Shown: positions 4,582 through 62,498 of the stretch, one piece after another
Position numbering within the stretch: the first letter of the stretch is position 1
Layout of the letters: each line of letters begins with the position of its first letter
NCBI RefSeq assembly: GCF_029873635.1
Contig: NC_080426.1
Location: 50,916,093-50,980,092, forward strand
Source: Malania oleifera
Lineage: Eukaryota; Streptophyta; Magnoliopsida; Santalales; Ximeniaceae
DNA length: 64,000 bases
Reading direction: 5' to 3'
Notes under the pieces: generated by a model
Told to the model about the DNA's origin: nothing
Databases searched by the model: none
Seen by the model: only the letters and a program-made list of their open reading frames with translations
Position numbers and translations under genes: made by a program

Positions 4582-6566
4582 TGTGACGCCCCGAACCCGC
4601 AGATGGGTCTCAGGTATGAATATAGTAACCTAACCTGTCTTTGTATCAATTCAAACATACATGATACAATACAATAAGAGGGTCTGACCTCGTGGGGTAC
4701 ACAGATGCCCTATACACATACACATATACATCCATACCCATCAGTTACGCAACGAAAAATGCTTCATCTGTCTATATAACACACCATACCAGAGTCTGTA
4801 CAAAGCTAGGATACACGAACCTATACAATACTAAGGTATACAATCCCATAAATACCGTACATACTCCGGGTGTCTACAAAACCATCACGACAACTTGGTT
4901 ACAAAATCTCGTACCTTATCAGGTACTAACAGTAGCTAATGACACCCCCGCTTCCGATTGCTAGGATGCTAAAGATGGCTACCTGATGGATCTGAAAACA
5001 TTGTACGTACATTCGGGGTGAGACACTTCTCAGTAAGGAAGAAAGCAGGTTATATTAGTGTGTGACATACCAGTGTTATTTTACGCAAAACATAACACTA
5101 TACAATACGATACAGTTCGAAAACATTTCCATACAGTTCCAGTATTTTCACAAATTCATTCCAGTACATACGATACCCAAAACATACGATTGGTGTCATC
5201 ACACTAATACACAACTATACTATGAAACTGAAGTTTCACAGCAATTACATTGCTAATACGATGTAGCTCACACTAGTATGCAACTACTCAATGAATTCAA
5301 AGTCTCACAACGATTACATTGCCAACATGCAACTACTCCATGAAACCCGAGACTTCACAGTAATTACATTGCCAATACAGTGTAGCTCACACCCCTCAGT
5401 GACCAGTCGGGATATGTAGTGATCTTTCATACCCTCGGATATAAAGTTAGACACTCTCACCCACGGTTTTCACACCGGTACATGGCGCAGTGTACGGTAA
5501 TTACCCACCACTAGCCGATTTCACAAAACCTGGAATCATTTTGGAGCTCACACAACTATACATGTCAGCGTACGGTAATTAGCCGCCACATAGCTATTTT
5601 ACAAAATACCTGGAATAATTATATACAACCATACATACCACACTTATTTGGTTTACGACAAATCATATTGTTTTCCAATTAAAGTATACAGTTTATTCAA
5701 ATATGGATAACAATCATCTCAATAATACAGTTTAAACAAAACAAACGGTTTTCCAAACAAAGCAGAGATAATACTTGAAATCCCCAAATTTTCTTGAAAA
5801 TAGTAACACGAAAATCCCATATTTTACCTGATAGATTTCCCCAAATAAGTTACCAAAACATACATACGATCGTAGCCTACAAGCTTACCGATCTTGATTT
5901 TGAAAATAAACTGAACCCCTTACCTTAACCCGAATTCCAACTATGAACTCTACGGTTCCCAAAACTACGAACCGAGGCTTCAAAACCTACAAACCACAGT
6001 ACAATACATGCTTACAATTTGTATCACTACACATATTTTGAATCAGAAACGAAAACCGAACCTTACATTGATTTTAGCTCGAAATCGAAAAACACTCAAA
6101 ACGAGATTTTGATCCACTAGAAACGTAGAGTATCCTTCCCTGATCCTCGCAGTAATGTTGGATTTACGAATCAGATGATGAACAACGAAGAAATCAAGAG
6201 AGAGAGAGAGAGTTTCGAGTTCTAGAGAGAGAGGGAGAGAAAATCAAGCTAACTTAGCTTGGAAGCAACCCTTTTGGATATTTATAGCCATTTGACTTGG
6301 GTGAATTCGTCGACGAATTGGCGTCCTCGTCGATGAGTTCGCCATTGCCTTCATCGACTAGATGGTGGCCTCGTCGACGAGCTGAAGTTCCATATTTTTG
6401 CCAAAATCCCTCGAGATCTCCTTGTCGACAAGACACTAAATTTCATCACCGAGAACAGAAGGGACTTCGTCGACGAACTTTGGTTTCGTCGACGAAGCTT
6501 GCCCAAATTACCACTTTACCCTTCTTTCAAATATTAAATCCACATACTACGATTCGGGTTCTTACA
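4582..6566 (-). mobile_element. solo LTR C (Gypsy, Tekay-like), in B gag
   Basis: A 1985-bp LTR with no internal region, flanked by a perfect 5-bp TSD CAAAG (4577-4581 and 6567-6571). On the + strand it begins TGTGACGCCCCGAACCC and ends CGGGTTCTTACA. On the minus strand it therefore begins like the LTRs of elements E and F (TGTAAGAACCC). It contains the shared box at 5015-5039, GA-rich DNA at 6200-6240, a minus-strand TATAAATA (6279-6287) and a CG-palindrome cluster at 6305-6500. Solo LTRs form by recombination between the two LTRs of a full element. Confidence 0.9.
6305..6500 (-). promoter_or_regulatory. CG-palindrome cluster in U3 of solo LTR C
   Basis: It holds at least six copies of a near-palindromic decamer related to TCGTCGACGA (for example at about 6308, 6327, 6373, 6423, 6469 and 6488). 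The cluster lies on the upstream side of the minus-strand TATAAATA at 6279-6287. Its position suggests an LTR promoter element, but binding is inferred only. Confidence 0.5.
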
Positions 6567-10393: not shown

Positions 10394-11961
10394 TGTCATG
10401 CCCCGAACCCAATAATTGGACTTGAGGGTGAAAAAGTAACCTAACCTGTCCCTGTATCACCAAAATCAAGATACAATAAAATGAATGAGGGTCCGACCCC
10501 GTGGGATTCCCAGGCACCCTATACACATTCACATACACAATAGAAACACAGTGGAAGATAAGTCTTTCTGTACACAATTTGTACCATACCAGAGTCTATA
10601 CAAAGGAGTCAAACTTCACAAAAACACAACATAACCTGGGTGACAACCATAACCACAAAAGTCAACCCGATACAGCCCTAGTACTTACCCAAGTACCTCT
10701 TGCAGTACACTGACCACTATGCTCCCAACACTAGGATGCTAGTTCCGGTTACTAGAAGGAGCTGAAAAATATGTACGTACAATAGGGGTGAGACACCTCT
10801 CAATAAAGGCAAATACATGTTATATTGGTGTGTGGCATTCGAGTGTTATTATGACAGCAAAACATACACAATTAAATGCAATTTTCAGTACTTCCAAAAA
10901 AAGTTTCAAAACAGTGCATACACGCACACACACACGATCAAGTAACCCAGTGTTGTGACACCCTTTGGCCCGAAGCCAGCCCGCGATACTCGGCATCGAA
11001 TCGTAGTCGGCCCGTGATACACGGTGTCCCCGGCACATGGCGAACCCTAGGCTCCCATGGCATCATACTGATAAAAACTAGTGGATCCACACCCTTCGGT
11101 GATTAGCCAGTAAGGCTCACGCCCTTGGATATAGAGTCAGACACTCTTGCCAAACATGACAGGCGATAAACACACGCCCTCGGATATAGAGTCGGACACT
11201 CTTTTAGTACTTGGAACAACTGAAACCCAGTTCCTATTGCATTTCATCAAAACACAACCATGGATGCTCCTATAATCAAATAAACCACACCCATTTGGTA
11301 ATCTATAAATCATGATTTTCCAAGTGTATATAGTTTAATAAAGTCAAGGCATGACCATCCCTAACACAATACATAACACAGTATACCAAAGGTTTTCCAA
11401 CAAAACCAGGGATTGTAGCCTAATACTCCCTTTTTCCTAAAAACTATTACATGAAAAACCCACAGTTTTACCTGTTAGATTTCCCCAAATAAGTAACCAA
11501 AACACACATAGGACTGTAAACCATAGTTCTACCGAATCCGATTTCAAAAGTAACCGACATAAACTGAATCCCCTTACCTTTTCTTGAATGACAAATCCTG
11601 AACTCCAAGGCCCCTAAACCACGAACCGAGTTCCAAAACCTACAACCCACAGTACAAAACTCGCTCACAACTCTGTTACCTATAAGACTACTGAATCAGA
11701 ACTGAAAACCGAGCCTTACCTCTATTTTGGGCCAAAACCTGAGAATACCCGAAACGAAAATCCAATCCGTAGAACTTGTAGAGAATCCTTCCCTGATCCT
11801 CGTGGTAATGTCGTATCTACGATTCCCGCTACATACGACAAAGAAATCTAGAGAGATAGAAAGAGAATTTGAGTTTTCTTAGTTGAGAAGTAATGACAAT
11901 ATCTATTTATAACCCTTCACTTAATTAATTAATTCCCTATATCATGATTCGGGTTCTTACA
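10394..11961 (-). mobile_element. solo LTR I (Gypsy, Tekay-like), in J
   Basis: A 1568-bp LTR with a perfect TSD CTCAT (10389-10393 and 11962-11966). It starts TGTCATGCCCCGAACCC and ends CGGGTTCTTACA on the + strand, so it is related to C, E and F in minus orientation. The shared box is at 10785-10809 and the minus-strand TATA at about 11904-11912. Unlike its relatives, only about 49 bases separate the TATA from the LTR end, and the palindrome cluster is absent. Confidence 0.9.
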
Positions 11962-12164
11962 CTCATGTTGCCCGTACGACAGTGATAACACAATATCATG
12001 ATCATCATGAACACATAGCTATAGTACCGTGCACGTGTAAGCCTAAACCAAGCCAACCAGGTTTTGATAACATATAACATATTTCAAACAGTGATACAAG
12101 GCTATTTCATAATAATAATTGCCAAGTTAATATCATCATATCATTTTTTCATATATAGAAAATC

Positions 12165-13017: not shown

Positions 13018-13208
13018 TTTGTTGACGAGCCACGTCACCTTGTCGACAAGGTCAAGAAGGTTGTTTGTTGATAAACATTTGTTCTCATCGACGAAATTCA
13101 GAGATGGGCAATTAGCCTCTCGGTATCTTCTCGTCGACGAGACACGCCCCCGTTGATGAGCCCCTCATATGTTCTCGTCGATGAATCCCCTGTATTTGTT
13201 GATGAGAT
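13018..13208 (-). promoter_or_regulatory. CG-palindrome cluster in U3 of solo LTR J
   Basis: Degenerate copies of TTGTCGACAAG, CTCATCGACGA and CTCGTCGACGAG spread over about 190 bases. They lie immediately on the upstream side of the minus-strand TATA at 13001-13010. Same arrangement as in C, E, F and K although J's LTR is otherwise different. Confidence 0.5.
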
Positions 13209-14375: not shown

Positions 14376-17097
14376 TTTTAAGATAAGTAGTTTTTGATAG
14401 TGAAAAGTGCTCATTAATGAAGATGTAGAAAAAATAAGGGAATTTGGAGAATCTTATTTTGGTGTTTTCATTCCAAAAATAATTTTAACCTTTTTGAAAT
14501 AACTTTTGACCTTATAAAAATATTTTTCAAGTATTTTAAAAGGTATATAAGTCTAAGTAATTAACCTAAGAGTTTCATGTATCCATATTGAAATTGTTTG
14601 AAATACTTACATGAGACTTCTTAAAAGACTATAACTTTCTAAGCACTAAGTCTTCATGTATTGGCTTCCATTCTTTATATCTCTCTTGAGCTTCTTCCTT
14701 CAATTGACTTTTGCTTTATTATGAGCCATGTCTCTAAGCATATGTGATCTTCTTTAACCACTTGAGCTTGATCTTTTAAGAACTTGATCTTTTATAAGAA
14801 CTTTTGAGCTTGATCTCTTTATAAAAGCTTTTGAGGTCTGAAACTTATCTTAGCAAAACATGTTAAGTTCCTTTGGTTTGTTATCATTAAAATAATATTC
14901 TAAACCTTATAAGGCCAACAATCTCCCTCTTTTTTATGATGACAAATAGGGAGCAAAAAACGAGTAAACCTTAATAAGACTCCCCCTTACAATAAGCATT
15001 ATCTTAACAATATTTGCAATATCAAGATCAATTTTCATAAACATATCAGAATTCATGATCAATTTCAATATCAATTTCAATATCATGCTCATATATTTCA
15101 GTTCATAGTTGAGTCAATATACATGCTTAGGTATGTAGTGCCATGCTCAATTTTTGCCCAAAAATTCTCTCCCTTTTGACATCAATCAAAAAAAGCAAAA
15201 AAAATATAAATATCAAGGCAATGAGCAACCATAAGCAAAAGTATATATCAAGTAAAGGCACAAAACAAAAACTTTGCATTCATCATACATTAAAAAAATA
15301 AACAATAAGTCCCAAAAAGCACGAGAAAATACAAAAGATTGTATATAAGATTTTTCAATACTTTCTACTAAAGAACAAAGATCATGATATTATTACTTAA
15401 CAAGTATAACTCCCCCTGAATGAAATACATTTCATATTCAGTAAATTCATAATTTCATTCTTGAAGGACAAACTATGTATCCATGTATAGTCTTGAGTGT
15501 AAATATCATGTGAAGTTATTATCATTATCAGTCATTATTAGCAATCATCATTATCAATTATGATTTTAAATTTATTATGCCATGCTCATGCTTAGTTTGT
15601 TAAATTTTCTTCCCCTTTTTATATCAACTAAAGGATAAATTGAAAGAAATATTATGCAAAGGTGCTAAGGAGAAAAAAAATTCGCATTTAGATTACAATA
15701 ACAAAGTCCATAATCCAGCATATGCTTTTTAAGATAAGGAGTGTTTGATAGAGAAAAGTACTCATTAATGCAGATGTAGAAAAAAGAAGGGAATTTGGAG
15801 AATCCTATTTTGGTTCTTTTCATTCCAAAAATAATTTTAACCTTTTTGAAATAACTTTTGACCTTATAAAAATATTTTCCAAGTATTTTAAAAGGTATCT
15901 AGGTCCAAGTAATTAACCTAAGAGTTTCATGTATCCATATTACAATCGTTTGAAGTACTTACATGAGACTTCTTAAAAGACTATAACTTTCTAAGTGCTA
16001 AGTCTTCATGTATTGGCTTCCATTTGTTGTATCTCTCTTGAGCTTCTTCCTTCAATTGACTTTTTCTTTATCATGAGCGATGTCTCTAAGCATATGTGAT
16101 CTTCTTTAACCAATTGAGCTTGATCTTTTAAGAACTTGATCTTTTATAAGAACTTTTAAGCTTGATCTCTTTATAAAAGCTTTTGAGCCCTAAAACTTAT
16201 CTTAACAAAATATGTCAAGTTCCTTTGGTTTGTTATCATCAAAAATAAGATTTTAAGCCTTGTAAGGCCAATAATCTCCCCCTTTTTTGATGATGACAAA
16301 TAAGGAACAAAAAATGAGTAAGCCTTAATAAGGCTCTCCCTTATATTAAGCATTACCTTAACAATATTTGTAATATTAAGATCAATTTTCATAAGTATAA
16401 TGGAATTCATGATCAATTTCAATATCATGCTCAAATATTTCAGTTCATAGTTGAGCTAATATATAGGCTTAGGTATGTAGTGTCATGCTCAATTTTTGCC
16501 CAAAAATTCTCCCCCTTTTGATATCAATCAAAAAAAGCAAAAAAATAATAATATAAATATCAAGGCAATGAACAACAATAAGCAAAAGTATATATCCAGT
16601 AAAGGTGCAAAACAGAACCTTTGCTTTCATCTTGCATTAAAAAAAAAAAAAAACAATAAGTCCCAAAAAGCATGAGAAAATACAAAAGATTATATATCAG
16701 ATTTTTCAATACTTTCTAGTAATGAACAAAGATCATGATATTACTGCTTAACAAGTATAACTCCCCCCCTGAATGAAATACATTTCATATTCGTTAAATT
16801 CATAATTTTATTCTTGGAGGACAAATTATGTATCCATGTATAGTATTGAGTGTAAATATCATGTGAAGCTATCATCATTATCAGTCATCATTAGCAATCA
16901 TCATTATCAATCATGCTTTTAAATTTATTATGCCATGCTCATGCTCAGTTTGTTAAATTTTCTTCCCCTTTTTATATTAACAAAATGATAAACCGAAAGA
17001 AATATTATGTAAAGGTACTAAGGACAAAAAATAAAATAAAAAATAAAAAAAAATTTGCATTTAGATTGCAATAACAAAGTCCATGATCCAGCTTATA
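14376..17097. repeat. 1.35-kb tandem duplication across LTR/internal border of G
   Basis: Unit 1 (about 14376-15726) and unit 2 (about 15727-17097) match throughout, with a repeat offset of 1351 bp measured at AGATAAG. Each unit contains the last roughly 545 bases of the left LTR, the LTR end (GGCCAACA or GGCCAATA) and about 800 bases of internal non-coding DNA up to AACAAAGTCCATGATCCAGC. The partner LTR at 44391-46386 has only one copy, so the duplication arose after insertion. Confidence 0.85.
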
Positions 17098-23386: not shown

Positions 23387-25233
23387 TGTAAGAACCCGAA
23401 TCGTGATATATGGGTTTAAATAATTAAGAGAGGGGTAAAATTGGAATTTGAACAAGCTTTGTCGACGAAGCTAGAGTTCGTCGAAAAAGGCCTGTATTTC
23501 TCGTTGACGAAGTTCAGAGGCTCATCGACAAGGAGAAGCCGAGAGATTTTGGGAAACCGGGAATCTCAGGCTCGTTGACGAGGTCACTATTTTGTCGAGG
23601 AGCTGTCTATATGACCTCGTCGATGAGGACACCATTTCATCGACGAGGACGGGCGAGTCAAAGGGCTATAAATATCCTTTCTCTTTGCTTCCAAGCTAAG
23701 AAAACTAAATTCTCTCTCCCTCTCTCTCTAGAACTCATCCTACTCTCTCTCTCTCTAGATTTCTTCGTCGTTTGTCACTGGAATCGACGATCTGACATTA
23801 CCATGAGGATTAGGGAAGGATTCTCCACAAAACCTATGGATCGGAATCTCGTTTCGGAGATTTTTGGGTTTTGGCTTAAAATCGAGGTAAAGCTCGGTTT
23901 TCTTTTTTGATCCGATAGTTTGGTAGAGGATGAAGTCGTGAGTATATTTTGTACTGTGTTTTGTAGATTCTGAGAACTCGGTTCGCTGTTTAGGAGCCGT
24001 AGAGTTTGGGATTGATCTTTTGGGGGAAAGGTAAGGGAATACAGTTTATATTTGTTATTTTTAAAATTGGACTTAGTAGAACTGTGGTTCATGGTCCTAT
24101 GTGCGTTTGGTTACTCATTTGGGGGAATCTGACGGGTAAAATTATGGGTTTTTCATGTTACAGTTTTGGGAAAAAGGGGGTATTGAGTTGCATCCCTGGT
24201 TTTGTTGAAAAACTGTCGGTATATTGTGATTTATACTGTGTATTAGGGATGACCATGCCTTGACTTTGTTTTAAACTGTATATGATTGGAAAACATGATT
24301 TTTGAAATTACCAAATGAGTGCGGTATGTTTGGTTATATGAGCATGCATGAATGTGTTATGTTGAAATGCAATAGGAACTGGGTTTTAAATTGTTCCAGG
24401 TACTAAAAGAGTGTCCGACTCTATATCCAAGAGCGTGTGTTTATCGCTTGCCATGTTGGTAAGAGTGTCCAGCTCTATATTCGAGGGCCTGAGCCTATAC
24501 TGGTTGATCACCAAAGGGTGTGGATCCACCAGATAGCGCTGGTACGATGCCATAAGAGTCTGGGACTAGCCATGTGTCAGTGGTGCCGTGTGTTGCCGGT
24601 TGGCTGCGGGCCAACCCCAGATATTGCAGATCGGCTATGGGCCGAGGGGTGTGACAACACCATGTAGATCGTGGGCGTGCATATACGTGTGTGTGCGTGT
24701 ATGCACTGTACTGGAACTGTATTGTGAGAATACTGGAATTGCATTGGCTGTGTTTATTTGCTGTTATGATAATACTCGAATGCCATACACTAATATAACC
24801 TGTGTTTGCCTTACTGAGATATGTCTCACCAATACTGTATGTACATTTTTACAGGTCTTTCGAGTAACCAGAACTAGCGTCCTGGTGTAGGTAGCGTAGT
24901 GATCGGTGTACTGCAAGTAGTGCTTGGGTAAGTGCTAGGACTTGTGTTTTGTGGATTGTCGTTTTGAGACATTTTGGACACCCGGTTGTACGTTATATGA
25001 TAAAGCCTTGTTCCTGCTCTTGTATATACTCTGGTATGGTACCATGCTTATATAGAAAGACCTTTTTCTACTGTGTATATTTTGTTGTGTTTGGATGTGT
25101 GTAGGGTGCCTGGGAACCCCACGGGGGCGGGCTTCATCCTTTGTACTATATCGTTGGATGTTTTATTGGATATAGGGACATGTTAGGTTACATTCTCACC
25201 CTTGGGTCCCATTCCCGGGTTCGGAGCATGACA
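23387..25233 (+). repeat. 5' LTR of Gypsy E with primer-binding site
   Basis: It starts TGTAAGAACCCGAATCG and ends GTTCGGAGCATGACA (1847 bp). The primer-binding site TTGGTATTAGAGC follows at 25236. Inside are the palindrome cluster (23458-23650), TATA CTATAAATA (23666-23674), a CT-rich tract (23700-23757) and the shared box at 24809-24830. The first 905 bases or so are repeated at 38392-39296. Confidence 0.9.
23458..23674 (+). promoter_or_regulatory. CG-palindrome cluster and TATA box of E 5' LTR
   Basis: About eight degenerate copies of a decamer like CTCGTCGACGAG lie in 23458-23650. The consensus TATA box CTATAAATA follows within about 16 bases (23666-23674), and a CT-repeat leader after that. 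The order fits U3 enhancer, TATA and transcription start. This is inferred from position and not shown. Confidence 0.55.
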
Positions 25234-25558
25234 GCTTGGTATTAGAGCTAACCAAGTTGTTAGGTCTTGTAGAATTGGTTAGGCTTAGCGGTGAGTACAT
25301 ACAAGAGTATAGGATGTTGGATGTGGGTATTGTTGGTTGAGGGTTGTTCTGTTGCTAGACCGGGACTTGTCATCAGTATTCCGTGTTTAACTGGGATGAC
25401 AATTCTAGTAAAAGCAGGGCAAACCATTGATGACTTTCATGTCGGTGTGGCAGGACAGACCTGGACCTGGCAGGGAGTAGGTAACACGATTAGTTGTAGG
25501 TAATTGTGTTAACTGTATATGTTGTAGGGATACTGATAGATTCCTATTGTGTTTTAGA

Positions 25559-26790
25559 ATGGAGTCCAAGGATAATGACCTAGGAAGTGGCTCCGAGGAG
25601 ACTGCGAGTGATAAGTCTCCATATGTACCTCAAGGTTTGATGAGGCAGGTTTTGCGAGAGATCGAGCAGAGTGTAAGGAGACGCGAGCACTTTCCTACTA
25701 CTACGGGGAGCACCATTGAGAGGTTCACACGCATGCATCCTTCGACGTTCTCTGGGGGACCCGACCCAATTATAGCATAGGACTGGGTCGAGAAGACCGA
25801 GAGGATTCTGGAAGTTCTCCACTGTACAGATGAGCAGAGAGTCCTATACGCTACCTTCCAACTGTCTAGGGAAGCGAGGCATTGGTGGACTGCCGTGAAT
25901 CTGCTGGAGAAGTAGAGAGCCAGTGTTTTCAAGATGTCTTGGAGCCGGTTCAAGGAGGTATTCTTTGAGAGATACTTCCCGGACTCCACTCGCAATGCAA
26001 AGGCAGGTGAGTTTTCTGCTCTGTCGCAAGGAGATATGACGGTGCAGGGGTACGCTGCTCGGGGTATAGAGTTATCCTACTTTACGCCGTGTTTGATCTC
26101 GAGCGAGTACGAGAAGGCTCGGAGGTTTGAGAAGGGTTTGAGGAGGGATATTCGTAGGTTGGTGGGTATGCTTTAGATCTGCGAATTCTCAGTTTTGGTG
26201 GATAAGGCTACAATGATCGAGATTGGCATACGAGAGGATAAGGTGGTCAGTAATCAAAGAAGAGGACAATACCTTCTGGTTCTTAGTCGAGATCTCGTCA
26301 GGGATCGTGGAAGAAGAGGAACAATGGCTCAATTTACCATTAGAATACCGAGGGCCAGAGTACTCAAGCGAGTCTAATGCAAGATTCTAGTACTAGGTGC
26401 CTCAGGTGGCACGAGAGCGAGTGTCGATTATTTGGGGGTAACTGCTACAACTATGGCCAGTCAGGCCACATGGCTCACGATTTTCGTGTACCGAAGAGAG
26501 ATATGCCTGCATCTAGTGTGAACCGAGGGAGCAACAAGATACCTTGGGAAACCATTCAGGCGAATATAGCTCCAGCTAGAGTATACTCTCTTACTCCAGC
26601 GGATGTTAAACATGCAAGGAACGTAGTGACAGGTACCTTATTATTGCTTTCAAATAAGGCTTCTGTTTGTTTTTATTTGGGTGCGACCCATTCTTTTGTA
26701 TTTGTGAGCTTTGTTAAATTGTGTGGGGTTCAGACCCAAATCATGAATGAGGTGTTATTTTTTACTACACCATCTGGGAGTATATCATTC
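25559..26790 (+). pseudogene. gag and start of protease of Gypsy E, broken
   Basis: The ATG at 25559 starts MESKDNDLGSGSEE. It continues through TRMHPSTFSGGPDP, then after a stop [29 protein letters not shown], and FEKGLRRDIRRLVGML, all typical Tekay gag. The zinc knuckle is degraded: CYNYGQSGHMAHDF has lost its second and fourth cysteines. The protease start reads VTGTLLLLSNKASVCFYLGATHSF, where the usual FDSGATHSF has lost its DS pair. The frame ends at about 26790 at the truncated LTR of element F and resumes at 34922. Confidence 0.85.
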
Positions 26791-27663
26791 TGGTGGTATT
26801 TCACATCCTTCGGCCAACGCCGGCAGTCTGGTGATATTTCACACCCTTCGGCAAATGCCGGTGCCCCCGCTAACCTAGCATAGCATTAGCGTTGAACCAG
26901 TGCAGATCTGGTGTTCGCACACCCTTCGGCTCAAAAGTCGGCCAATCTAGTGGTATTGCGCACTCTTCGACAAAAGTCGAATTTACAAACCTGGAACAAT
27001 TCAGAATCCCGTTCCTATTTCACCAAGATACAACATATGCATGCTTATATAACCAAACAAACCACACCCATTTGGTAATCTAAATCATGGTTTTCTAAAC
27101 AAAACAGTTTAAACAAGTTAAGGCACGACCATCCCAATAACACAGTATAAATCACCATATACACCTGGTTTTCAACAAAACCAGGTATACAGCTCGTCGC
27201 TCCCCTTTTTTCAAAACTGTAATAATGAAAAACCTATAGTTTTCCCCATTAGATCCCCACAAATGAGAAGCCAAAACATACACAGGACTGTGAACCACAG
27301 TTCTACCGAGTCCGATTTAAAAAATAACTGATACAAACACAGTTCCCCTTACCTTTTCCCCAAATAGCAAATCTCGAACTCCGAGGCCCCTAAACAACGA
27401 ACCAAATTCCAAAACCTACAAATCACAATATAGAAAATACTCACAAGATTGTTTCCTACGAAACCACTGGATCAGAATTGAAAACCGAGTCTTACCTCAA
27501 TTTTACGCTGAAACTCGAAAATATCTGAAACGGGATTCCAATTAGTAGAACTTGTAGAGAATCCTTCCACGATCCTCATGGTAACTTCAAATTCCCGATT
27601 CCAGCAACGAACAACGAAGAAATCTAGAGAGATAGAGAATAGGGAGAGTTCTAGAGAGAGTTC

Positions 27664-27723
<60 letters not shown>

Positions 27724-28050
27724 TTTTAAGTTTCTTGGCTTAGAAGTAAAAAGATTCCTATTTATAGCCCCTTTCACTCGGCCCAACTCGTCGACGAAGT
27801 GGTGTACTCGCCAACGAAGCCCTATAGTTTTCTCATCGACAAGATGCAAGATTCGTTGACGAACCCTGATATCACTGGTTCTCGAAACTTCTTGGCTTCT
27901 CCTCGTCAACGAGCCCTTGAATTTCGTTGACGAGAAGGACTAAGACTTCGTCGACGAAATCTGGCTTCGTCGACGAGGCATGCTCTTTTACCAAAATTCC
28001 CCTCTCTTTAAATTATAAAAAAAAACATTATTAAGAGTCAGCTTCTTACA
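26791..28050 (-). repeat. left (3') LTR of Gypsy F, truncated
   Basis: It matches 33716-34921 with roughly one difference in ten by eye, mostly transitions. It ends CAGCTTCTTACA at 28050, followed by a polypurine tract on the minus strand (28051-28064). It contains a GA microsatellite (about 27659-27720), minus-strand TATA near 27760 and a palindrome cluster at 27786-27980. Confidence 0.87.
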
Positions 28051-28327
28051 ACCTCCCCTCCTTATAAAAATTTCATCCTCGAAATTTGTACTCTCTCATA
28101 TGCGAACTCATTCTTACAATCGAACACATATATACCAATCTAGAGAAAAACTAGAGACCACTACAGCGTAGCCCCATCATACACATACACATACATACCC
28201 TCACTTATGACGGATGAATACCGTGGTTACATATACAACTGTCTTAGGAGTTCACAATACACACACTCCCGACGACTAACCACCTATCCCAACCCATAGT
28301 AGGATCATATACAGGTGCTTAAAACAA

Positions 28328-31300
28328 CTATGGATACTTCTGGCGTATTTCCGTTTCTAGTTCCAAAGAAGCTTCCTCAACCTCTTGGTTTTGCCACAAT
28401 ACCTTCACTAACGGTATCTCTTTGGTACAAAGTTTCTGAACTTTACGGTCCAAAACCTGAATAGGTATCTCTTCATACGCTAAAGCATCCCCAATTTCCA
28501 ACTCATCATAAATAATAACATGTGAAGGATCCAACACGTGCCTCCTCAACATGGATACGTAAAACACATCATGGACCCTCAAAAGTGCTAGAGGTAATAC
28601 AATCCTGTAGGCTACCGGACCCACTCGCTCAAGTACCTCGAATGGTCCGATATACCTCGGGCTCAACTTGACATTTCTCCCAAATCTCATTACCCCTTTC
28701 ATCGGAGCGATACGTAGAAATACCTTACCTCCCACTTCGAACTCTAATTCACGTCGGCGAACATCCACATAACTCTTTTGTCGACTCTGAGCTGATCTAA
28801 TCCTCTCCCGGATCAAACCCACCTTCTTAAATGCCTGCTGCACGAGTTCAGGTCCTAACACCTGACGATCACCAACCTCATCCCAACACAAAGGAAATTG
28901 ACACCTCTGACCATACAAAGCCTCGAACGGTGCCATCCCTATACTAGACTGGAAGCTGTTATTATAAGTGAACTCTACAAGTGGCATGAACTGTATCCAG
29001 CTACCACCAAAATCTAACATATAAGCTCGCAACATATCTTCCAAAATCTATATCATCCCTTTGATTTTCCATCAGTCTGGGGGTGGAATGTTGTACTGAA
29101 AGTAAGTTTCGTCCCCAATGCCTCCTACAAGCTCATCCAGAATCGAGAAGTAAACCTCGGATCCCAATCCGATACTATGGACACCGGTACTTCGTGTATT
29201 CTCACAATCTCATGCATATACAAATATGCTAGCCTACTCAAAGGATAGCCAACTTTCATCGGTACGAAATGACCAAATTTCATCAATCTATCCACGATTA
29301 CCCAAATAGCATTCTGCCCGTGAAGTACTAGCGGCAATCCGGTCACAAAATCCATGGAAATATGCTCCCATTTCCACATTGGAATAGGCAAAGAATGCAA
29401 CGGCCCTGCTGGCCTCTAATGTTCAGCTTTCACCTGCTGACACGTCAGACACTGCTGCACAAACTGGGCAATCTGCCTCTTCATACCAGACTACTAGAAA
29501 GTCTTGTGCAAGTCCCAATACATCTTTGTACTACCAGGATGTATCGTATACAAAGAAAGATGCGCCTCCTCCAGAATCGTCCTTCCAATCTCATCATCAT
29601 TCGAAACACATAGCCTAGTCCCAAACCTCAACACACCTCTCTCAGAGATGTTAAACTCTGTAACTAGTCCCTTCTGGACTTTTTCCTTAACCTCTGCCAA
29701 CTCAGCATCACTAGCCTGCACGACTTTTATATGCTCAAATAAAGTCGGCTGGACCACCAAACCAGCAAGATAAGCCTGATGATCACCAATCACTAACTCT
29801 ATACCTGAGCTCTCCAATTCTCGTCTAATGTGACACTGAGTTACAATTGCGAATACAGCAGTAGGTCCCGGCTTCCGACTCAACACATCAGCTACCACAT
29901 TAGCCTTCCTCGAGTGATAACTGATCATGTAATCGTAGTCCTTAATCAACTCTAGCCACCGCCTCTGCCTCATTTTCAACTCCTTCTGCGTAAAGAAATA
30001 CTTGAGACTCTTATGGTCTGTGAAGATCTCACATTACACCCCGTACAGATAGTGTCACCAGATCTTCAGTGCATATACAACAGCAGCCAACTCCAAATCG
30101 TGCGTAGGGTAGTTTTTCTCATATTCCTTTAGTTGGCGAGAGGCATAAGCTACTATCTTACCCTACTGCATGAGCACACATCCCAAGCATTTCATATATG
30201 CATTGCTATAGATCACAAACCCACCATCCCCCGAAGGAATGGTCAATACTGGAGCAGTAACCAGTCGGTGCTTCAATTCCTGAAAGCACTGCTTGCAATC
30301 ACTGGTCACTCAAACTGCACTCCCTTCCTGGTCAATTGTGTCAGAGGTCCAGAAAATTTAGAGAAACCCTTTACGAACCGATGATAGTAACCTGCCAGTC
30401 CTAGAAAACTCCGAACCTCCTGCACATTCTTCGGCCTTACCCAGTCGACCACAACTTCAATCTTGCTAGGATCAACTAATATACCATCTCTAGTAACCAC
30501 ATGGCCTAAGATCGCAATCTGACTCGACCAGAATTCAAAATTCTTCAGTTTAGCATACAACTTCCTCTCCCGCAGAATCTGTAATACTAACTTCAAATGT
30601 TCCACGTGCTCTTCCATACTCCTCGAGTATACCAGAATGTCGTCAATGAATACCACTACGAATCGATCTAGGTACTCATGGAAAACCCTGCTCATCAGAT
30701 CCATGAACACTGCTGGAGCATTCGTCAACCCAAAAGGCATGACTAAGAACTCGTAGTGGCCATATCTGGTTCGGAAAGCTGTCTTCGCTACATCCTCTGA
30801 TCTAACCCTCACCTGATGATATCCTGACCGCAAGTCAATTTTTGAAAAGACCCGCGTTCCCTCTAATTGGTCAAAGAGATCATCTATACAAGGTAAAGGA
30901 TAGCGATTCTTCACAGAACCTTGTTAATCCCATAGTAATCAATGCACATCCGCATCGACCCATCCTTCTTCTTCACAAACAATACTGAAGTTCTCCAGGG
31001 CAAAACACTAGGTCGAATGAATCCCCTGTCCAATAATTCCTGTAACTACTCCTTCAACTCCCGAAGTTCTACTAGAGCCATCTGGTATGAAGCTTTAGAG
31101 ATCGGTGCCTTACTAGGCAGCAACTCTATCACAAACTCCACCTCACGATCCGGAGGTAAATCAGGTAAATCATCTGAAAACACATTCGGGAACTTGCTGA
31201 CTACCCGAATGTCCTCGAGTATCAACTCATCTCGCGGCGGTTCCTTCACGTAATCTAGGTACCCCCGACATCCGTCCAAGAGTAGCCTCCTCGCCTGTAG

Positions 31301-31890
31301 TGCCGACAGAATCTGTGGTGCTCGACGCACACCCGACCCCACGAATTCGTACTCCTGCTCCCCAGGAGGTCTGAAAACTACCACCTTCCTACGACAGTCG
31401 ATCGCAACATAACTGGAGAGCAACCAATCCATCCCCAGAATGACATCGAACCCTGACATATTGTATACCACAAGATTTACCGGTAGCAGCTTCCCCTGAA
31501 TTTCCACTGGGCAGTCTACTAACATCTTCCTAGAGAATGATACACTCCTAGATGGCGTAGTAACAGATAACACCTCAGTCATGTCTCGGGTCTCAACCCT
31601 ATATCATCCCACAAAATTTATAGATACAAAAGAATGGGTTGCACTTGAATCAAACAAAATAGAAGCCTTATTCGAAAGCAATAATAAGGTACCAGTCACC
31701 ACATTCGCTGCATGCTCAGCGTCCACTGGAGTAAGAGAATATACTCTGGCCAGAGCTGTACTCATTTGAACGGTTCTCCGAGGTAACTGATTACTCCCTC
31801 GGTTCACACTAGATACAGGCACGTCTCGCCTTGGTGCATGACAATCACGAAACATGTGACTTGGCTGACCACAGTTATAGCAGTTACCCC
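28328..31890 (-). pseudogene. zinc knuckle, protease, RT, RNase H, integrase and chromodomain of F
   Basis: Minus strand in order: intact zinc knuckle CYNCGQPSHMFRDC (about 31850-31890); protease LFDSSATHSF (DSG changed to DSS); retropepsin tail FDVILGMDWLLSS; RT 30306-30914 with [30 protein letters not shown] and the catalytic FIDD box; RNase H remnants (30000-30300); integrase zinc region and core with a broken frame (29125-29979); and a C-terminal piece 28328-29044. That piece carries the integrase C-terminal domain and chromodomain-like block ([15 protein letters not shown], then KVLWQNQEVEEASLEL). RT and the integrase end are open for over 200 codons. Stops near 29040, 29400, 29500 and 30000-30300 make it inactive. 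Confidence 0.87.
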
Positions 31891-31979
31891 TGAATGACTG
31901 GCACTCAACTTTGTGTCATTTGTGGCATCTGGCACAACGTCCACGAGTCTGGCACATATGAGAATCCTGATGCTCGGTA

Positions 31980-32767
31980 TTCTAACAGTAGTCCGAGCCC
32001 TTATTTATCTTCTTCCATGATTCCTGACGAGATTCTGTCTGAGAACCAGAAGGTACTGTCCTCTTTCTTGATTCCTGGTCCATATTTTCCTCTCGGATAC
32101 CGGTCTCAAACACTGTGGCCTTATCCACCAACACCGAGAACTCATGGATCTGAAGCATACCCACTAACCTGCGGATATCCTTCCTCAAACCCTTTTCGAA
32201 CCTTCGAGTCTTCTCATATTCGCTTAGGATCCAACATGGTGCAAAGCGAGACAGCTCTATATATCGAGCCGCATACTCCGGCACTATCAAACTCCCCTAA
32301 GTCAGAGCAGAAAACTCATTTGCCTTCGCATCACGTACAGAAGCCAAAAAATATCTGTCGAAGAATACCTCCTTGAAACGGCTCCACGTCATCTCCTCTG
32401 AATTGGCTCTCTGCTTGTCCAGCAGACTCACCGCAGTCCACCATCGACCCGCCTCCCCACACAGCTGGAAAGTAGCATAGAGGACTCGCTGCCTATTCGT
32501 GCAGTGCAGGACTTCCAGAATTTTCTCAGTCCTCTCCATCTAGTCCTCTGCTGTCGTTGAGTCAGGTCCTCCAGAGAACGTCGGAGGATGCATGCGTGTG
32601 AACCTCTCAATGGTGCACCCCGCAGCAGCACGAGAACGCTCGTGTCTCCTCACACTTCGCTCGATCTCTCGTAATACCTGCCTCGTCAAACCTCGAGGTA
32701 CAGAAGGAGACTCATCACTCGCAGTCTCCTCGGAGCCACTTCTTAGGTTATTATCCTTGGGCTCCAT
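31980..32767 (-). pseudogene. gag of Gypsy F
   Basis: The minus-strand ATG at 32767 is chosen because it aligns with the start of E's gag (MEPKDNNLRSGSEE here, MESKDNDLGSGSEE in E). The 89-residue frame upstream of it reads through leader. It continues with FTRMHPPTFSGGPDS, a TAG stop, [23 protein letters not shown], another stop, and FEKGLRKDIRRLVGMLQI, ending at about 31982. Two in-frame stops break a sequence that is otherwise close to E's. Confidence 0.85.
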
Positions 32768-33091
32768 GCTGTAACATAATAGGAATCTATCAGTATCCCT
32801 ATAACACATATAGTTAACACAATGATCTACACTAATAGTGTTAACTACTCCCTGCCAGGTCTAGGCCTGTCCTATCACACCAACACGAAAGTCATCAATG
32901 ATCTGCCCAGCTTTTACTGGAATCATCATCCCAGGAAAAACACGGAATACAGTCGACAAATCACGGTCTAGCAACCGAACAACCCCCAACCAACTTTACC
33001 TATATCCACATCCTATACTTTGGTATGTACTCACAACTAAGCCTAACCAAGTTTACAAGATCTAGTAACCTGGTTAGCTCTGATACCAAGC

Positions 33092-34921
33092 TGTCAAGCC
33101 CTGAACCTGGAAATGGGACTCGGGGGTGAAAATGGAATCTAAGCTACCCCTGTATCATACAAATAATCCACAGATATAGTACAAAGGATGAGGATCTAAT
33201 CCCGTGGGGTTCCAAGGCACCCTAAACACATCCAACACAATCATATACGCAGTGAAAAAAGGTCATTCTATATATCATATGCAGCACCATACTAGAGTCT
33301 ATACAAGAGCTGACACAAGGCTCTATCAAAATGTACAAACGGGTGCCCAAATACATTTCAAAATGGCAACCCACCAAAATACAGTCCTAGCACTTTCCCA
33401 AGCGCTAACCGTAGTACACTGGCCACTACGCTCCCTACACTAGCACACTAGTTTCGGTTACTTGAAGGACTTGTAAAAATGTATGTACAGCAGGGGAAAG
33501 ACACCTATCAGTAAGGAAGAACACAGGTTATATCGGTGTGTAACATTTGAGTGTTATCATGACATACTAACATGCATAGTTCAATAATCAAAACAATTAA
33601 AACCAGTTTCAGTATTTTCACAAAACAAGCAATACAATCTGGTGTCGTCACACCCTTCAGCTCGAAGCCAGACTGTCTGGTGGTATTTCACACCCTTTGG
33701 TAAAAATCAGTGATTTGGTGGTATTTCACACCCTTCGGCCAACGTCGGCAGTTTGGTGATATTTCACACCCTTCGGCAAACACCGGTGCCCCCGGTAACC
33801 TAGCATAACATCAATGTTGAATCGGTGCAGATCTGGTGTTCGCACAACCTTTGGCTCAAAAGCCGGCCAATCTAGTGGTATTGCACACTCTTCGGCAAAA
33901 GCTAAATTTATAGACTTGGAATAATTCAGAACCCCGTTCCTATTTCACCAAGATACAACATATGCATGCTCATATAACCAAAAAAATCACCCAATTTGGT
34001 AATCTAAATCATGGTTTTCCAAAAAAATACATTTTAAACAAGTCAGAGCATGGCCATCCCAATAACACAGTATAAATCACCATATACACTTGATTTTCAA
34101 CAAAACCAGGGATGCAGCCTGTTGCCTCCTTTTTCCAAAACTGTAATAATGAAAAACCCATAGTTTTCCCCGTTAGATTCCCCCAAATGAGTAGCCAAAA
34201 CACATACAGGACCGTGAACCACAGTTCCACCGAGTCCGATTTCAAAAATAACCGATATAAACACAGTTCCCTTTACCTTTTCCCTGAATAGCAAATCCTG
34301 AACTCCGAGGCCCCTAAACAACGAAACGAGTTCCAAAACCTACAAATCACAGTACAGAAAATAATCACAAGATTGTTTCCTACAAAACTACTGGATTAGA
34401 ATTGAAAACCAAGTCTTACCTTGATTTTACACCGAAATTCGAAAATCTCTGAAACGAGATTCCGATTCGTAGAACTTGTAGATAATCCTTCCACGATCCT
34501 CGTGGTAACTTCAGATTCCTGATTCCAGCAACGAACAACGAAGAAATCTAGAGAGATAGAGAGTAGGGAGAGTTCTAGAGAGAGAGAGAGAGATATTTGA
34601 AGTTTCTTAGCTTGGAAGTAAAGAGATTCCTATTTATAACCCCTTTGACCCTGCCCAACTCGTTGATGAAATGGTGTACTCGTCGATGAGGTCCTATAGT
34701 TTTCTCATCGATGAGACGCAGGATTCGTCGACGAACCCTGATATCACCGGTTCTCAAAACTTCTCGGCTTCTCCTCATCGACGAGCCCCTGAATTTTGTC
34801 GATGAGAAGGACAAAGACTTTGTCGATGAAATCTGGCTTCGTTGACGAGGTATGCGCTTTTACCAAAATGACCCTATCTTTAAATATTAAAAAAAACATT
34901 ATCAAGAGTTGGGTTCTTACA
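33092..34921 (-). repeat. right (5') LTR of Gypsy F with primer-binding site
   Basis: It is 1830 bp, beginning TGTCAAGCCCTGAACC and ending GGGTTCTTACA on the + strand. The minus-strand primer-binding site TTGGTATCAGAGC lies at 33078-33090. It has four to six degenerate repeats with the core CACACCCTTCGGC (33640-33905), minus-strand TATA (34630-34638) and a palindrome cluster (34657-34850). Confidence 0.9.
34657..34850 (-). promoter_or_regulatory. CG-palindrome cluster in U3 of F right LTR
   Basis: About eight copies related to CTCGTCGATGAG and TTCGTCGACGAA. They lie on the upstream side of the minus-strand TATAAATA at 34630-34638. The other LTR of F holds the same cluster at 27786-27980 with scattered transitions. 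Confidence 0.5.
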
Positions 34922-37900
34922 AGTTTGCCCAGTGGTAATTCAGGGGAAGCTGCTACAGGCGAACCTGGTAGTATACGACATGTCAGGGTTAGATGTTATT
35001 TTAGGGATGGATTGGTTGTTCTCCAATTATGATGTGATCGATTGTCGTAGGAAGGTAGTAGTATTCAGACCTCCTGAGGAAAAGGAGTACGAATTTGTGG
35101 GATCGTGTGTGCGTTCAACGCCACCGATTCTATCGGCACTGTAGGAGAGGAGGTTACTCTTGGACGGGTGTCAGGGGTACCTAGCTTGGGTGAAGGAACT
35201 GCCGTGGGATGAGTTAAGACTCAAGGACATTCGGGTAGTCAGCGAATTCCTGGATGTGTTTCCAGATGATTTACCCGGTCTACCTCCGGATCGTGAGGTA
35301 GAGTTTGTAATAGAATTGCTGCTTGGTAAGACACCGATCTCTAAAGCTCTGTATTGGATGACTCCAACAGAACTTTGAGAGTTGAAGGAGCAGTTGCAAG
35401 ACTTACTGGACAGGGGATTCATTCGACCTAGTGTTTCGCCCTGGGGAGCTCCAGTATTGTTTGTGAAGAGAAGGACGGGTCGATGCGGATATGCATTGAT
35501 TACTGTGAGATTAATAAGGTAACTTTGAAGAATTGCTATCCTTTACCTCGTATAGATGATCTCTTTTACCAGTTGCAAGGGGCGTGGATCTTTTCAAAGA
35601 TTGACTTGCGGTGAGGATATCATCAGGTGAGGGTCAGATCTAAGGATGTTGCGAAGACGACTTTTTGAACTAGATATGGCCACTATGAGTTCTTAGTCAT
35701 GCCTTTTGGGTTGATGAATGCTCCGACAACATTTATGGATCTTATGAACGGGGTTTTCCATGAGTATCTGGACCGGTTCATGGTGGTATTCATTGACGAT
35801 ATTCTGGTATACTCGAGGAGTTCAGAAGAGCACGATAATCATCTGAGGTTAGTATTACAAATTCTGCGGGAGAAGAAGTTATATGCTAAACTGAAGAGGA
35901 GTGAATTCTGGTTGGATTAGGAGGCGTTCTTAGGCCATGTGGTGACTGGTGACGGTATCTTAGTTGATCCTAGCAAGATCGAAGCTGTGGTTGACTGGAT
36001 GAGGCTAAAGAATGTGTAGGAGGTTCGGAGTTTTCTTGGATTCGAGGGTTACTATCGTTGGTTCATGGAAGGTTTCTCTAACTTGTCTAGGCCTCTGACT
36101 CAATTAACCAGGAAGGGAGTGCAGTTTGAATGGACCAGTGATTACGAGCAGTGCTTTCAGGAGTTGAAGCACCGATTGGTTACTGCTCCGGTTTTGACCA
36201 TTCCTTTGGGGGTTGGCGGGTTTCTGATTTATAGCTACGCGTCTCTGAAAGGTCAGGGATGTGAGCTTATACAATAGGGTAAGGTAGTAGCATATGCTTC
36301 TCAACAACTGAAAGAATACGAGAAGAATTACCCTACGCATTATCTGGAGCTGGCTGCTGTTGTATATGCACTGAAGATATGGCAATACTACTTGTATGGT
36401 GTGCAATGCGAGATCTTTACTAACCACAAAAGCCTCAAGTACTTTTTCATGCAAAAGGAGTTGAATATGAGGCAGAGGTGGTGGCTAGAGTTGATCAAGG
36501 ACTACGATTGCATGATTAGTTATCACCCGGAGAAAGCTAATGTGGTAGCTGATGCGTTGAGTTGGAAGTCAGAGCATGTGACAGTATTTGCAGTTGTAGC
36601 TCAACATTATATCAGATGGGATCTAGAAAGCATTGGTGTGGAGTTGGTGGTTGGTGATTATCAGGCTTTCATTACTAGCTTGGTGATCTATTCGACTTTG
36701 TTTGAGCGTATAAAGGCCGCACAGGCTAGTGATACGAAGTTGGCAGAGGTTAGAAAAAAGGTACAGTAGGGACTGGATACAGAGTTTAACATCTCTGAAG
36801 GAGGAGTATTGAGGTTTGGGACCAGGCTATGTGTTCCGAACAATGATGAGATCAGAAGGATGATTCTAGAAGAGGCGCATCGTTCTTTATATACGGTACA
36901 TCCTGGTAGCACAAAGATGTATCGGGACTTGCACGATACCTTATGGTGGTCTAGTATGAAGAGGCAGATTGCTCAGTTCGTGGAGCAGTGTCTAACGTGT
37001 CAGTAGGTGAAAGCTGAACATCAGAGGCCAGCAAGACTGTTGCAGCCTTTGCCTATTCCGGTGTGAAAATGGGAGCATATTTTCATGGATTTTGTTATCG
37101 GATTTCTACCAGCGCTTCACAGGTAGAATGCTATTTTGGTAATCGTGGACAGGTTGACGAAATCTGCTCATTTCATACAAATGAAGGTTGGCTACCCTTT
37201 AAGTAGGCTAGCAGACCTGTACATGTGAGAGATAGTTCGAATGCACGGAGTATTGGTGTCCATTGTGTCAGATCGAGACCCGAGGTTTGCTTCTCGATTT
37301 TGGACGAGCTTGTAGGAAGCATTGGGGATGAAGCTTACTTTTAGTACAACGTTCCACCCCCAGATTGATGGACAATCAGAGAGGACGATAAAAATTTTGG
37401 AAGATATGTTGCGAGCTTGTGTGTTAGACTTTGGTGGTAGCTGGATACAGTTTATGCCGCTAGTAGAGTTTGCTTATAATAACAGCTTCCAGGCTAGTAT
37501 CAAGATGACACCGTTCGAGGCTTTGTATGGTCGGAGGTATCAATCTCCTTTGTGTAGGGATGAGGTTGGTGAACGTCAAGTTTTAGGACCTGAACTGGCA
37601 GCAGGCATCTGAGAAGGTGGGTTTGATCCGAGAAAGGATTAAATCAGCTCAGAGTTCACATAAGAGTTATGCAGATGTTCGTTGTTGTGAGTTAGAGTTC
37701 GAGGTGGGGGAGGTAAGGTATTTCTTTGTATCGCTCTGATGAAAGGGGTGACGAGATTTGGGAGAAAGGGCAAGTTGAACCCAAGGTACATCAGACCATT
37801 CGAGGTGCTTGAGCGAGTGGGTCTGGTAGCCTACAAGATTACACTACCCCCAGCACTCTCGAGGGTCCACGATGTGTTTCACATATCCATGTTGAGGAGA

Positions 37901-38391: not shown

Positions 38392-38725
38392 TGTAAGAAC
38401 TCGAACCGTGAAGAGAGGGGTAAAATTGGAATTTGAACAAGCTTCATCGACGAAACCAGAGTTCGTTGACGAAGGCCTTGTATTTCTCGTCGACGAAGTT
38501 CAGAGGCTCGTCGACGAGGAGAAGCCGAGAGATTTCAGGAAACCGAGAATCTCAAGCTCGTTGACAAGGTCACCTTTTCGTTAACGAGCTATTTATATGA
38601 CCTCGTCGACGAGGAAACCATTTCGTCGATGAGGACGGCTGAGTCAAAGGGCTATAAATATCCTTTCTCTTTGCTTCCAAGCTAAGAAAACTAAATTCTC
38701 TCTCCCTCTCTCTCTATAACTCATC

Positions 38726-38764
<39 letters not shown>

Positions 38765-41296: not shown

Positions 41297-41463
41297 CCTC
41301 GTCGACGAGTCCTGTAGAAAGTTCGTCGACGAACCTCAACCCTCGTCGACAAATTTTAGGCTTCCAAAAATCCTCTCTGTATCTTTTCGTAGACGAAACG
41401 GAACTTTGTCGACGAGATCCTAAAGAACCCTTGTCGACGAAACCCTTGTGTTCATCAACGAGG
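41297..41463 (-). promoter_or_regulatory. CG-palindrome cluster in U3 of solo LTR K
   Basis: Copies include CCTCGTCGACGAG, GTTCGTCGACGAAC, CCTCGTCGACAAA, CTTTGTCGACGAG and CTTGTCGACGAA. They begin about 6 bases beyond the minus-strand TATA box (41284-41291). Confidence 0.5.
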
Positions 41464-47617: not shown

Positions 47618-48138
47618 TGTTGTGTTATGTGGCTCATATATTTGATGGGATGCATAAACAAGGAAGAAGACATAGTGGAAAATCACAAGTGCTGAGGAGC
47701 AACAGGGAAACCGTCGACGGTTTGGCAGCAGATTTAAGACAATTTCCATACTGTCTTAAACCATCGACAGTTCCCAATCTGTTGACGGTTTGGCTTAGGA
47801 ACCCAACACAGATTTTCAAAATTTGAATGTGAATGTTAAGTTGGTTGGGTGTTTGGAGGGAAACCTTCGTAGTGTTTATATATACATCATTCTAGGTGTA
47901 TTGTCAGAGAGAGAAGAACATTGTAAGAAGTACTGTTTTGTGTCCTTTAACACTTATATAGTGAAAATTTACCGATTGCTCTTGTGAATCTAGGCATTGT
48001 CAAACCAAGTAATTCTTTGCGTTTTTATTCTTGCTTTCATATATATATAATGTGTGTGTGTGTGTGTGTTCCATATTTGTTCTTCATTAGTTGATGCGTT
48101 TAATTTCTGCTGTGCAAAATCCGAGTTTATTCACAGCA
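47618..48138 (+). repeat. 3' LTR of Copia B
   Basis: It starts TGTTGTGTTATGTGG and ends TTCACAGCA (521 bp). It carries the clearer version of this family's palindromes (AAACCGTCGACGGTTT, then CCATCGACAG, then CTGTTGACGG) at 47707-47795. TATATATAC follows near 47877 and a (TG)n run at 48050-48069. Confidence 0.87.
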
Positions 48139-59128: not shown

Positions 59129-59689
59129 TATTGTTTATGGTGTGACTTTTATACTTCAGGAGTTTCTAAACAAAGGGAAAAACATATGGATGTGGTCTTG
59201 GTGCAGGGGCATCAGTAAAGACTCGTCGACGAGTGGACAGAATCATCGACAAGTGACCTTCTCTAGCTCGTAGACGAGTGCCCTGTTCTCGTCAACGAGT
59301 GGTCGCTAGGCTGCGAGAAAGAATTTAAATTTTGAATTTGAACATTGGAATAGTTGGGTATTCGGAGAAAAACTTCTGAGGGGTTGTTATATACATATTT
59401 CAAAATGTAAGAGAGTAAGAGAGGGGTGAGAGAAGGAGAGAAGATCATTGAGTGTACATCTTTGATTTTCATAGTGAAATCTCTTGCCAGTTGCTTTCGT
59501 GGATGTAGGCTTTACCGAACCACGTAATTCTTGGTGTCGTTGCTCTTATCTTTACTCTCTTTACATTGCTATGGTTTTAGAATGTTTTCTGTTTATCACT
59601 ATTTTGTTTGTTGCAAGTATGCATGTGTGATCCTTTATACAATGTTCATTCCACTGCGCATTGTTGAGAGAGGCTACCATTTTTTCACA
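59129..59689 (+). repeat. 5' LTR of Copia P
   Basis: It is 561 bp. The first two bases read TA where the 3' copy has TG, and it ends TTTTTTCACA. It contains CTCGTCGACGAG, CATCGACAAG, CTCGTAGACGAG and CTCGTCAACGAG at 59222-59300, upstream of GTTATATAC near 59387. Confidence 0.82.
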
Positions 59690-61992: not shown

Positions 61993-62498
61993 TGTTGTTT
62001 ACGGTGTGGCTCTTATACTTCGGGAGTTTATAAGCAAAGGGAAAAACATGTGGATGTGGTCTTAGTGCAGGGCAACAGCAAAGACTCGTCAACGAGTGGC
62101 CTTCTCTAGCTCGTAGATGAGTGCCCTATTCTCGTCGACGAGTGGTCACTGGGTTGCGAGAAATAATTTAAATTTTGAATTTGAATGTTAGAGTGGTTGG
62201 GTATTCGGAGGGAAACCTCTGAGGGGTTGTTATATATGTCATTCTGGGCATATTTCAAAATGTAAGAGAGTACGAGATGGGTGAGAGAAGGAGAGAAGAT
62301 CATTGAGTGCATATATTTGATTTTTATAATGAAATCTCTTATCGATTGCTCCTGTGGATGTAGGCTTTATCGAATCACATAATTCCTAGTGTCGTTGCTC
62401 TTATCTTTACTCTCTTTTCATTGCTATGGTTGTGAAATGTTTTCTATTTATCATCATTTTGTTTGTTGCAAGTATGTATGTGTGATCATTTATACAAT
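61993..62498 (+). repeat. 3' LTR of Copia P, truncated
   Basis: It starts TGTTGTTTACGG after the polypurine tract and matches 59129-59640. Identity is lost after TTTATACAAT, so about the last 50 bases are missing. The palindrome cluster is at about 62083-62145. Confidence 0.82.

Follow-up and report, generated by a model that had tools for sequence, protein, structure and literature searches.

Repeated factor sites in the U3 near the TATA box are known from plant LTR elements, with heat-shock-element arrays and further U3 boxes (ONSEN, Tnt1 BII) as examples; these systems use motifs other than the one treated here. A closer relative is the repeated motif (RM) of Sirevirus LTRs. In the passages of Bousios et al. 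2010 (PMC2829016) that concern them, RM boxes are palindromic and CpG-rich, number at least eight per element, and gather in the upper half of the LTR, a short distance ahead of a conserved TATA box, where they stay conserved amid divergent flanks. The same passages give their function as unknown and report them as specific to Sireviruses and absent from classic Ty1/copia elements. For Del (Tekay) LTRs, the relevant part of Cruz et al. 2014 (PMC4029996) describes a 5′ CpG island that lies in the first half of the LTR and is variable, together with a eudicot Del group that lacks it; the string "palindrom" has no occurrence in PMC4029996. Among DNA transposons, the part of PMC5735166 on VANC targets in VANDAL elements describes a dense, lineage-specific short motif in non-coding TE DNA.

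The window analyzed here, a 64-kb stretch of DNA, contains LTRs with a comparable arrangement. We consider it probable that these LTRs carry a promoter module consisting of two four-site blocks of YTCGTCGACGAR at fixed spacing upstream of the TATA box, a putative docking array for a dimeric protein that would have one ancestry among the Gypsy LTRs and would have arrived in Copia elements by exchange. The full site is the 12-bp dyad YTCGTCGACGAR and its core is the decamer TCGTCGACGA. An earlier note on this DNA had reported clusters of 4 to 8 such decamers in several LTR families. The clusters are real and larger than claimed: with up to one mismatch, TCGTCGACGA has 40 matches in the window compared to 0.36 expected (100 shuffles, maximum 2), and their positions hold for C, E1, E2, F1, F2, J, K, P1, and P2. 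The number per LTR needs correction, since the Gypsy LTRs hold eight (K seven) once decayed sites are counted. When each CG is free to read TG or CA, the window has 56 matches compared to 2.6 simulated (50 simulations, maximum 7), and GTCGAC is its most over-represented 6-bp palindrome (28 vs 4.6). All 38 matches in which two or three CGs are intact fall inside nine arrays (1,501 bp in total), and 5 of the 56 CG-relaxed matches, each with 0–1 CG, lie outside them; as it was the motif that set the array limits, this comparison is partly circular. When the core was defined without the outer bases, the 5′ base was a pyrimidine in 256 and the 3′ base a purine in 263 of 267 clustered sites (the window plus loci L033–L074). 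CpG observed/expected is 1.2–1.7 across the nine arrays and 0.61 for the window.

Table 1. Site arrays and related LTR features of the window.
Feature	Position	Strand	Steps between sites (bp) and remarks
LTR C, Gypsy, 8 sites	6306..6496	-	19, 24, 21, 51, 20, 24, 20; in register with E and F
Solo LTR D, same group as C/E/F, without array	10394..11961	-	from alignment; 5-bp duplication CTCAT at both edges
Solo LTR J, 8 sites	13018..13206	-	21, 25, 19, 46, 20, 25, 21
LTR E1, 8 sites	23458..23647	+	19, 23, 21, 50, 20, 25, 20; TATAAATA at 23667
LTR F1, 8 sites	27787..27977	-	one low-scoring off-grid match in the 50-bp gap excluded
LTR F2, 8 sites	34659..34849	-	19, 24, 21, 50, 20, 25, 20
LTR E2, 8 sites	38443..38633	+	19, 24, 21, 50, 20, 25, 20
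LTR K, 7 sites	41298..41462	-	21, 25, 19, 44, 20, 24
Copia B palindromes, ACCGTCGACGGT and two decayed relatives	47710..47789	+	from sequence; related to the arrays by position only
Copia P LTR 1 (P1), 4 sites	59222..59299	+	20, 25, 21
Copia P LTR 2 (P2), 3 sites	62085..62142	+	25, 21; aligned, one unit less than P1

The sites are arranged on a grid. Eight slots at fixed positions precede TATAAATA in the Gypsy LTRs; C, E1, E2, F1, F2, and J have a site in every one and K in seven, so that 55 of 56 slots are filled. The layout consists of steps of 19–21, 23–25, and 19–21 bp, then 44–51 bp, then 20, 24–25, and 20–21 bp. In C, E2, and F1, 20–21 bp separate the last site from TATAAATA, compared to 7–9 bp in J and K. 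Off-grid low-scoring matches (score 8.5) were excluded: one in C, two in P1, two in F1, and one each in B1 and B2. The decamer had also been ascribed to Copia P and, in a variant form, to Copia B. This is right for P, where both LTRs have arrays, but B has another half-site, ACCGTCGACGGT, and no 12-mer match in the window site scan rises above the low-scoring 8.5 level there. Between the palindromes of Copia B, at 47733–47760, is an inverted repeat, TTTAAGACA / TGTCTTAAA, which forms a stem in the predicted fold.

The spacing extends beyond the window. In the random genome stretches described below together with the window, 100 of 105 steps measure 18–21, 23–25, or 43–51 bp, bands that were picked after inspection of the data; the five remaining steps are 38, 68, 70, 71, and 75 bp, and the latter four (68–75) may span a missing site. 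Of 97 decamer pairs listed for the first 3 Mb of contig C1, among 25,387 in the genome, 58 have steps of 19–21 bp, 25 of 24–26 bp, and 14 of 43–44 bp; steps of 14–18, 22–23, and 27–42 bp are absent from those 97. An exact 18-bp step occurs at 22 genome places, and the 22 loci picked for it were left out of the quoted step counts. The 20-, 24-, and 47-bp steps are not whole helical turns throughout, a point against the docking array. Five J/K-type arrays (L033, L036, L043, L047, and L066 (4788)) have an extra site 51–55 bp upstream of the first block, and the stretches that follow these extra sites resemble one another.

Across the 1.494-Gb host genome, in which the window occupies 50916093–50980092 of contig C10, two exact decamers lie 14–44 bp apart at the 25,387 places mentioned above, and the reversed control gave 0. 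Of 20 stretches of 10 kb, positioned at round coordinates as a random sample, 7 carry sites that retain two or three CGs; these sites number 41 and form 10 clusters. Extrapolation from 10 clusters per 200 kb suggests, very roughly, about 75,000 clusters genome-wide. Ten exact decamers fall in these stretches, or 26 together with those of the window; 29 permuted palindromes have 0 occurrences each in the same DNA. A chance origin was rejected on the window and genome counts alike. A scan of viral contigs returned 32 stretches with the decamer at spacings that are multiples of three, which were taken for phage coding sequence and set aside; 31 of them have 58–75% GC and one (L024) has 40%. In the literature, no plant-LTR title appeared among the matches listed for TCGTCGACGA, and a search for it together with retrotransposon wording found none, the Sirevirus and Del papers being the nearest.

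The array shares several properties with the Sirevirus RM. Its sites are palindromic with near-constant pyrimidine and purine ends, and in C, E2, F1, J, and K their CpG-rich arrays stop 7–21 bp short of TATAAATA. The RM minimum of eight clustered copies compares with eight in six of the seven Gypsy LTRs, seven in K, four in Copia P1, and three in P2, and the Vitis RM version as given in PMC2829016, CGGTCGACCG, has the central GTCGAC in common with the present motif. However, 12 of the 13 RMs in Table 3 of PMC2829016 have a CGG-CCG core, in contrast to TCGTCGACGA here; the present hosts are a Ty3/gypsy lineage (element F) as well as a Copia lineage; and the passages of PMC2829016 that treat the RM describe no fixed grid such as the one found here. 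Because of this other core, other superfamily, and fixed grid, we do not regard the array as a member of the Sirevirus RM. The Del CpG island, as PMC4029996 presents it in part, is likewise a CpG-rich stretch in the 5′ half of the LTR, but it is variable where the grid is constant, and the eudicot Del group is without it.

A link to the Del/Tekay lineage of Ty3 elements comes from element F, which has a Ty3-type reverse transcriptase and integrase. The RVT_1 match at 30306–30923 and the Tf2-1-type SH3 domain (SH3_Tf2-1) at 28328–29047 identify F as Ty3/gypsy. A Del or Tekay identity of C, E, and F, which the earlier note called Tekay-like, is plausible; as the one ORF of F that was scanned (28328–29047) has no Pfam chromodomain match up to E 5, we leave the Tekay name to that note. 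Copia P is probably Ty1/copia, since part of its interior (60060–60434) matches 7322–7704 at 65% and the latter stretch coincides in part with an ORF that encodes Pol_BBD and a zinc knuckle. From BLAST matches, element F (26791–34922, minus strand) is nested in element E (plus strand, LTRs E1 and E2) within region 23387–39300.

Constraint on the sites was compared with that on the spacers. Across C, E2, F1, J, and K, the T/T/A/A columns are invariant in 25 of 28 cases and the spacer columns in 10 of 74 (Fisher p 9e-13); with E1 and F2 replacing E2 and F1, the counts are 26/28 and 12/77. Transversion-free CpG columns number 40 of 42, compared to 30 of 74 spacer columns, in the first set and 38 of 42, compared to 30 of 77, in the second. 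The choice of sites is little biased by the motif because nearly every slot carries a site. Taken together, the seven Gypsy arrays retain 217 of 220 T/A cells, and their 165 CpG cells consist of 105 CG, 54 TG/CA, and 6 other. Recent tandem duplication of units was considered and rejected: the spacers of one LTR resemble each other no more than shuffled ones do (0.39 vs 0.37), so the sites have been kept one by one and not via recent tandem copying.

Recognition of the dyad by a protein would account for the invariant T/A positions, for ends at which C and T are both accepted, for the constant steps, and for the location next to the TATA box. Our current hypothesis is that a dimeric sequence-specific protein, either the host's or the elements' own, occupies the sites on double-stranded DNA and that the bound protein would drive or prime LTR transcription, an activating role suggested by the position of the array. 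The predicted binding is probably sensitive to CG methylation, because the three CpGs per site are kept by transposing lineages and lost in old copies. Some CBF/DREB proteins recognize a core that is presumably similar to the central GTCGAC.

The behavior of the CpGs also bears on a contest over silencing, in which the row would be read by a VANC-like anti-silencing protein or would serve as a dense CpG target that recruits methylation. The CpG ratio in the nine arrays, 1.2–1.7 against 0.61 for the window, fits such a role, as does the account in PMC5735166, in the part on VANC, of a protein that reads short motifs clustered at high density in non-coding TE stretches. However, when the two LTRs of each of the elements E, F, and P are compared, 27 of 51 motif CpG dinucleotides and 54 of 89 other CpGs are found to differ. 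The motif CpGs thus decay about as fast as other LTR CpGs, and this comparison gives no sign of protection in inserted copies or of a special CG-methylation target, an option that the earlier note had offered for the clusters. As far as the sequences indicate, inserted copies would decay as methylated DNA does and the transposing lineage would keep the sites. The VANC motifs described in PMC5735166 moreover stand in one orientation in tandem repeats and are read by an element-encoded protein in DNA transposons, whereas the present sites are dyads on an LTR grid with spacers that are not copies of each other. We therefore regard a silencing contest as quite unlikely.

The palindromes could alternatively act as RNA, with sites 20 bp apart forming 12-bp stems and 8-nt loops in U3 transcripts that serve a step of the life cycle or supply siRNA. 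Six stretches fold with z values of −5.4, −5.7, −2.4, −1.9, −3.8, and −3.7 (four strong; Copia B −3.8), but any row of a single palindrome folds. According to passages in PMC10760457 and PMC5311732, the palindromes of maize Sireviruses are hot spots for small RNAs. Among the clustered sites, the outer bases are self-complementary slightly more often than in shuffles (142/267 vs 127.4, z 1.9); neighbors 19–21 bp apart reach 100/188 vs 90.0 (z 1.5), the self outer pair in the window sites is 32/55 vs 27.6 expected (p 0.18), and C-A mismatches in neighbor stems are 9/38 vs 10.0. No significant compensatory change, as RNA pairing would predict, was found in either the window sites or the 267 clustered sites, and the distance between stems is as fixed as the loops. 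An RNA role, for which the strong folds leave some room, is thus unlikely, and a protein-docking array on double-stranded DNA is the reading we retain.

The origin of the array among the Gypsy LTRs is best read as inheritance. C, E, and F have BLAST identities of 67–89% over 656–1262 bp, their eight sites are in register with alignable spacers, and their U3s align with z values of 11, 28, and 29 when the sites are masked. By these alignments, homology through the whole U3 unites C, E, and F in a single LTR group. The earlier note had taken the flanks of these families to be unrelated and the arrays to be possibly convergent; for C, E, and F the first claim fails, and convergence was rejected on the masked-U3 homology, a finding that the note itself had set against it.

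Convergence of the J/K arrays with the other Gypsy arrays is unlikely as well, and here the homology is likely but indirect. With sites masked, J or K compared with C, E2, and F1 gives z −0.1 to 4.5, with no directly detectable likeness, and in a BLAST comparison that contained J but not K, nothing linked J directly to the Tekay-like copies. J and K themselves are weakly alike when masked (z 2.7), and the same two LTRs are 71% alike downstream. Genome copies of the J/K type, however, match the C/E/F group across the pre-LTR stretch and the LTR start, with bridging alignments of 94 bp (L040 vs F1, 9e-12) and 105 bp (L051 vs L068, 1e-10); the strongest bridges of all, which pass through CT repeats, were disregarded. 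In addition, a purine-rich spacer box right after slot 4, the closing site of the first block, is common to J/K-type and Tekay-like arrays, and five Tekay-like boxes scored on a table from 18 J/K-type boxes give p 6e-5 to 6e-4. Because these intermediates and the spacer box join J/K to the homologous C/E/F group, a single ancestral Gypsy array, J/K included, is likely, and the array would have been inherited from it.

Solo LTR D belongs to the C/E/F group, but no site was found in it, and its LTR start runs almost directly to TATAAATA. As D is a solo LTR with a target duplication, the module appears to be dispensable for some copies. D (region 10389–11966) is nested in solo LTR J, and K bears CTCAT once at the matching place.

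The earlier note had also raised exchange or convergence for the module as a whole. A promoter-proximal module resembling a factor-binding array is indeed present in both Gypsy and Copia LTRs, and between the two superfamilies exchange is tentatively favored over convergence on the strength of one Copia-type locus, L055. We take L055 (57–226) to be of the Copia P/B type because, with the sites masked, the flank at its LTR start aligns to 71 bp of P2 (79%) and 82 bp of B2 (78%); a further match to P2 covers 114 bp at 72%, the array itself included. In LTR orientation, L055 has six sites with steps of 21, 71, 21, 25, and 21 bp, which would fit the J/K-type grid given one missing site. Right after the second site is GAGATCCAGAGAGC, the same kind of box as in the Gypsy arrays, and GAGATACTGAGAGC lies nearby. 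On a scoring table built from 25 Gypsy boxes (7 of 32 gaps were left out, namely the five upstream ones of 51–55 bp, L055_3450, and one 45-bp gap of L068), 39 of 399,480 genome 14-mers score as high as GAGATCCAGAGAGC and 9 of 399,480 as high as GAGATACTGAGAGC, a p of about 1e-4 that is flattering because the likeness was spotted by eye before testing. This Gypsy-type box and the compatible spacing are the reason that exchange is favored.

It is also possible, if somewhat doubtful, that Gypsy and Copia elements acquired their arrays separately and that the same binding protein imposed motif and spacing on both, an alternative that concerns origin only. Copia B uses another half-site, and in LTR orientation the spacers of Copia P1 have no significant likeness to Gypsy spacers (64/300 and 73/300 shuffles as good; best of 26 comparisons p 0.064); the spacer likeness of L055 is not seen in Copia P of the window. 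Against independent origin stand the two boxes of L055 and its central block, which beats 300 of 300 shuffles when compared with the 32 Gypsy gaps (17.0; largest shuffle 16.7); its slot spacers are weakly like Gypsy spacers, with 13 and 14 of 300 shuffles as good. Exchange, the likelier route by which the module may have reached the Copia lineage, leads to a wider picture that we put forward tentatively: a putative docking grid could by now stand in tens of thousands of this genome's LTR promoters, brought there by descent in Ty3/gypsy and by transfer to Ty1/copia, and two superfamilies would then be under one regulator.

These findings indicate that a Ty3/gypsy lineage has its own version of the palindromic CpG boxes before the TATA box that were earlier reported as a Sirevirus feature. 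The constraint slot by slot and the fixed spacing can be measured against changed spacers in very many natural copies, which makes a DNA-binding array, an RNA hairpin, and a silencing target directly testable. The module shared by Gypsy and Copia LTRs, if true, would be evidence that regulatory blocks of LTRs move between superfamilies. Elsewhere in the window, an ORF at 394–1266 has a BACK domain and probably represents an exon from a host gene of the BTB type, and 14376–17096 consists of two adjoining 1.35-kb direct copies that are 89% alike.
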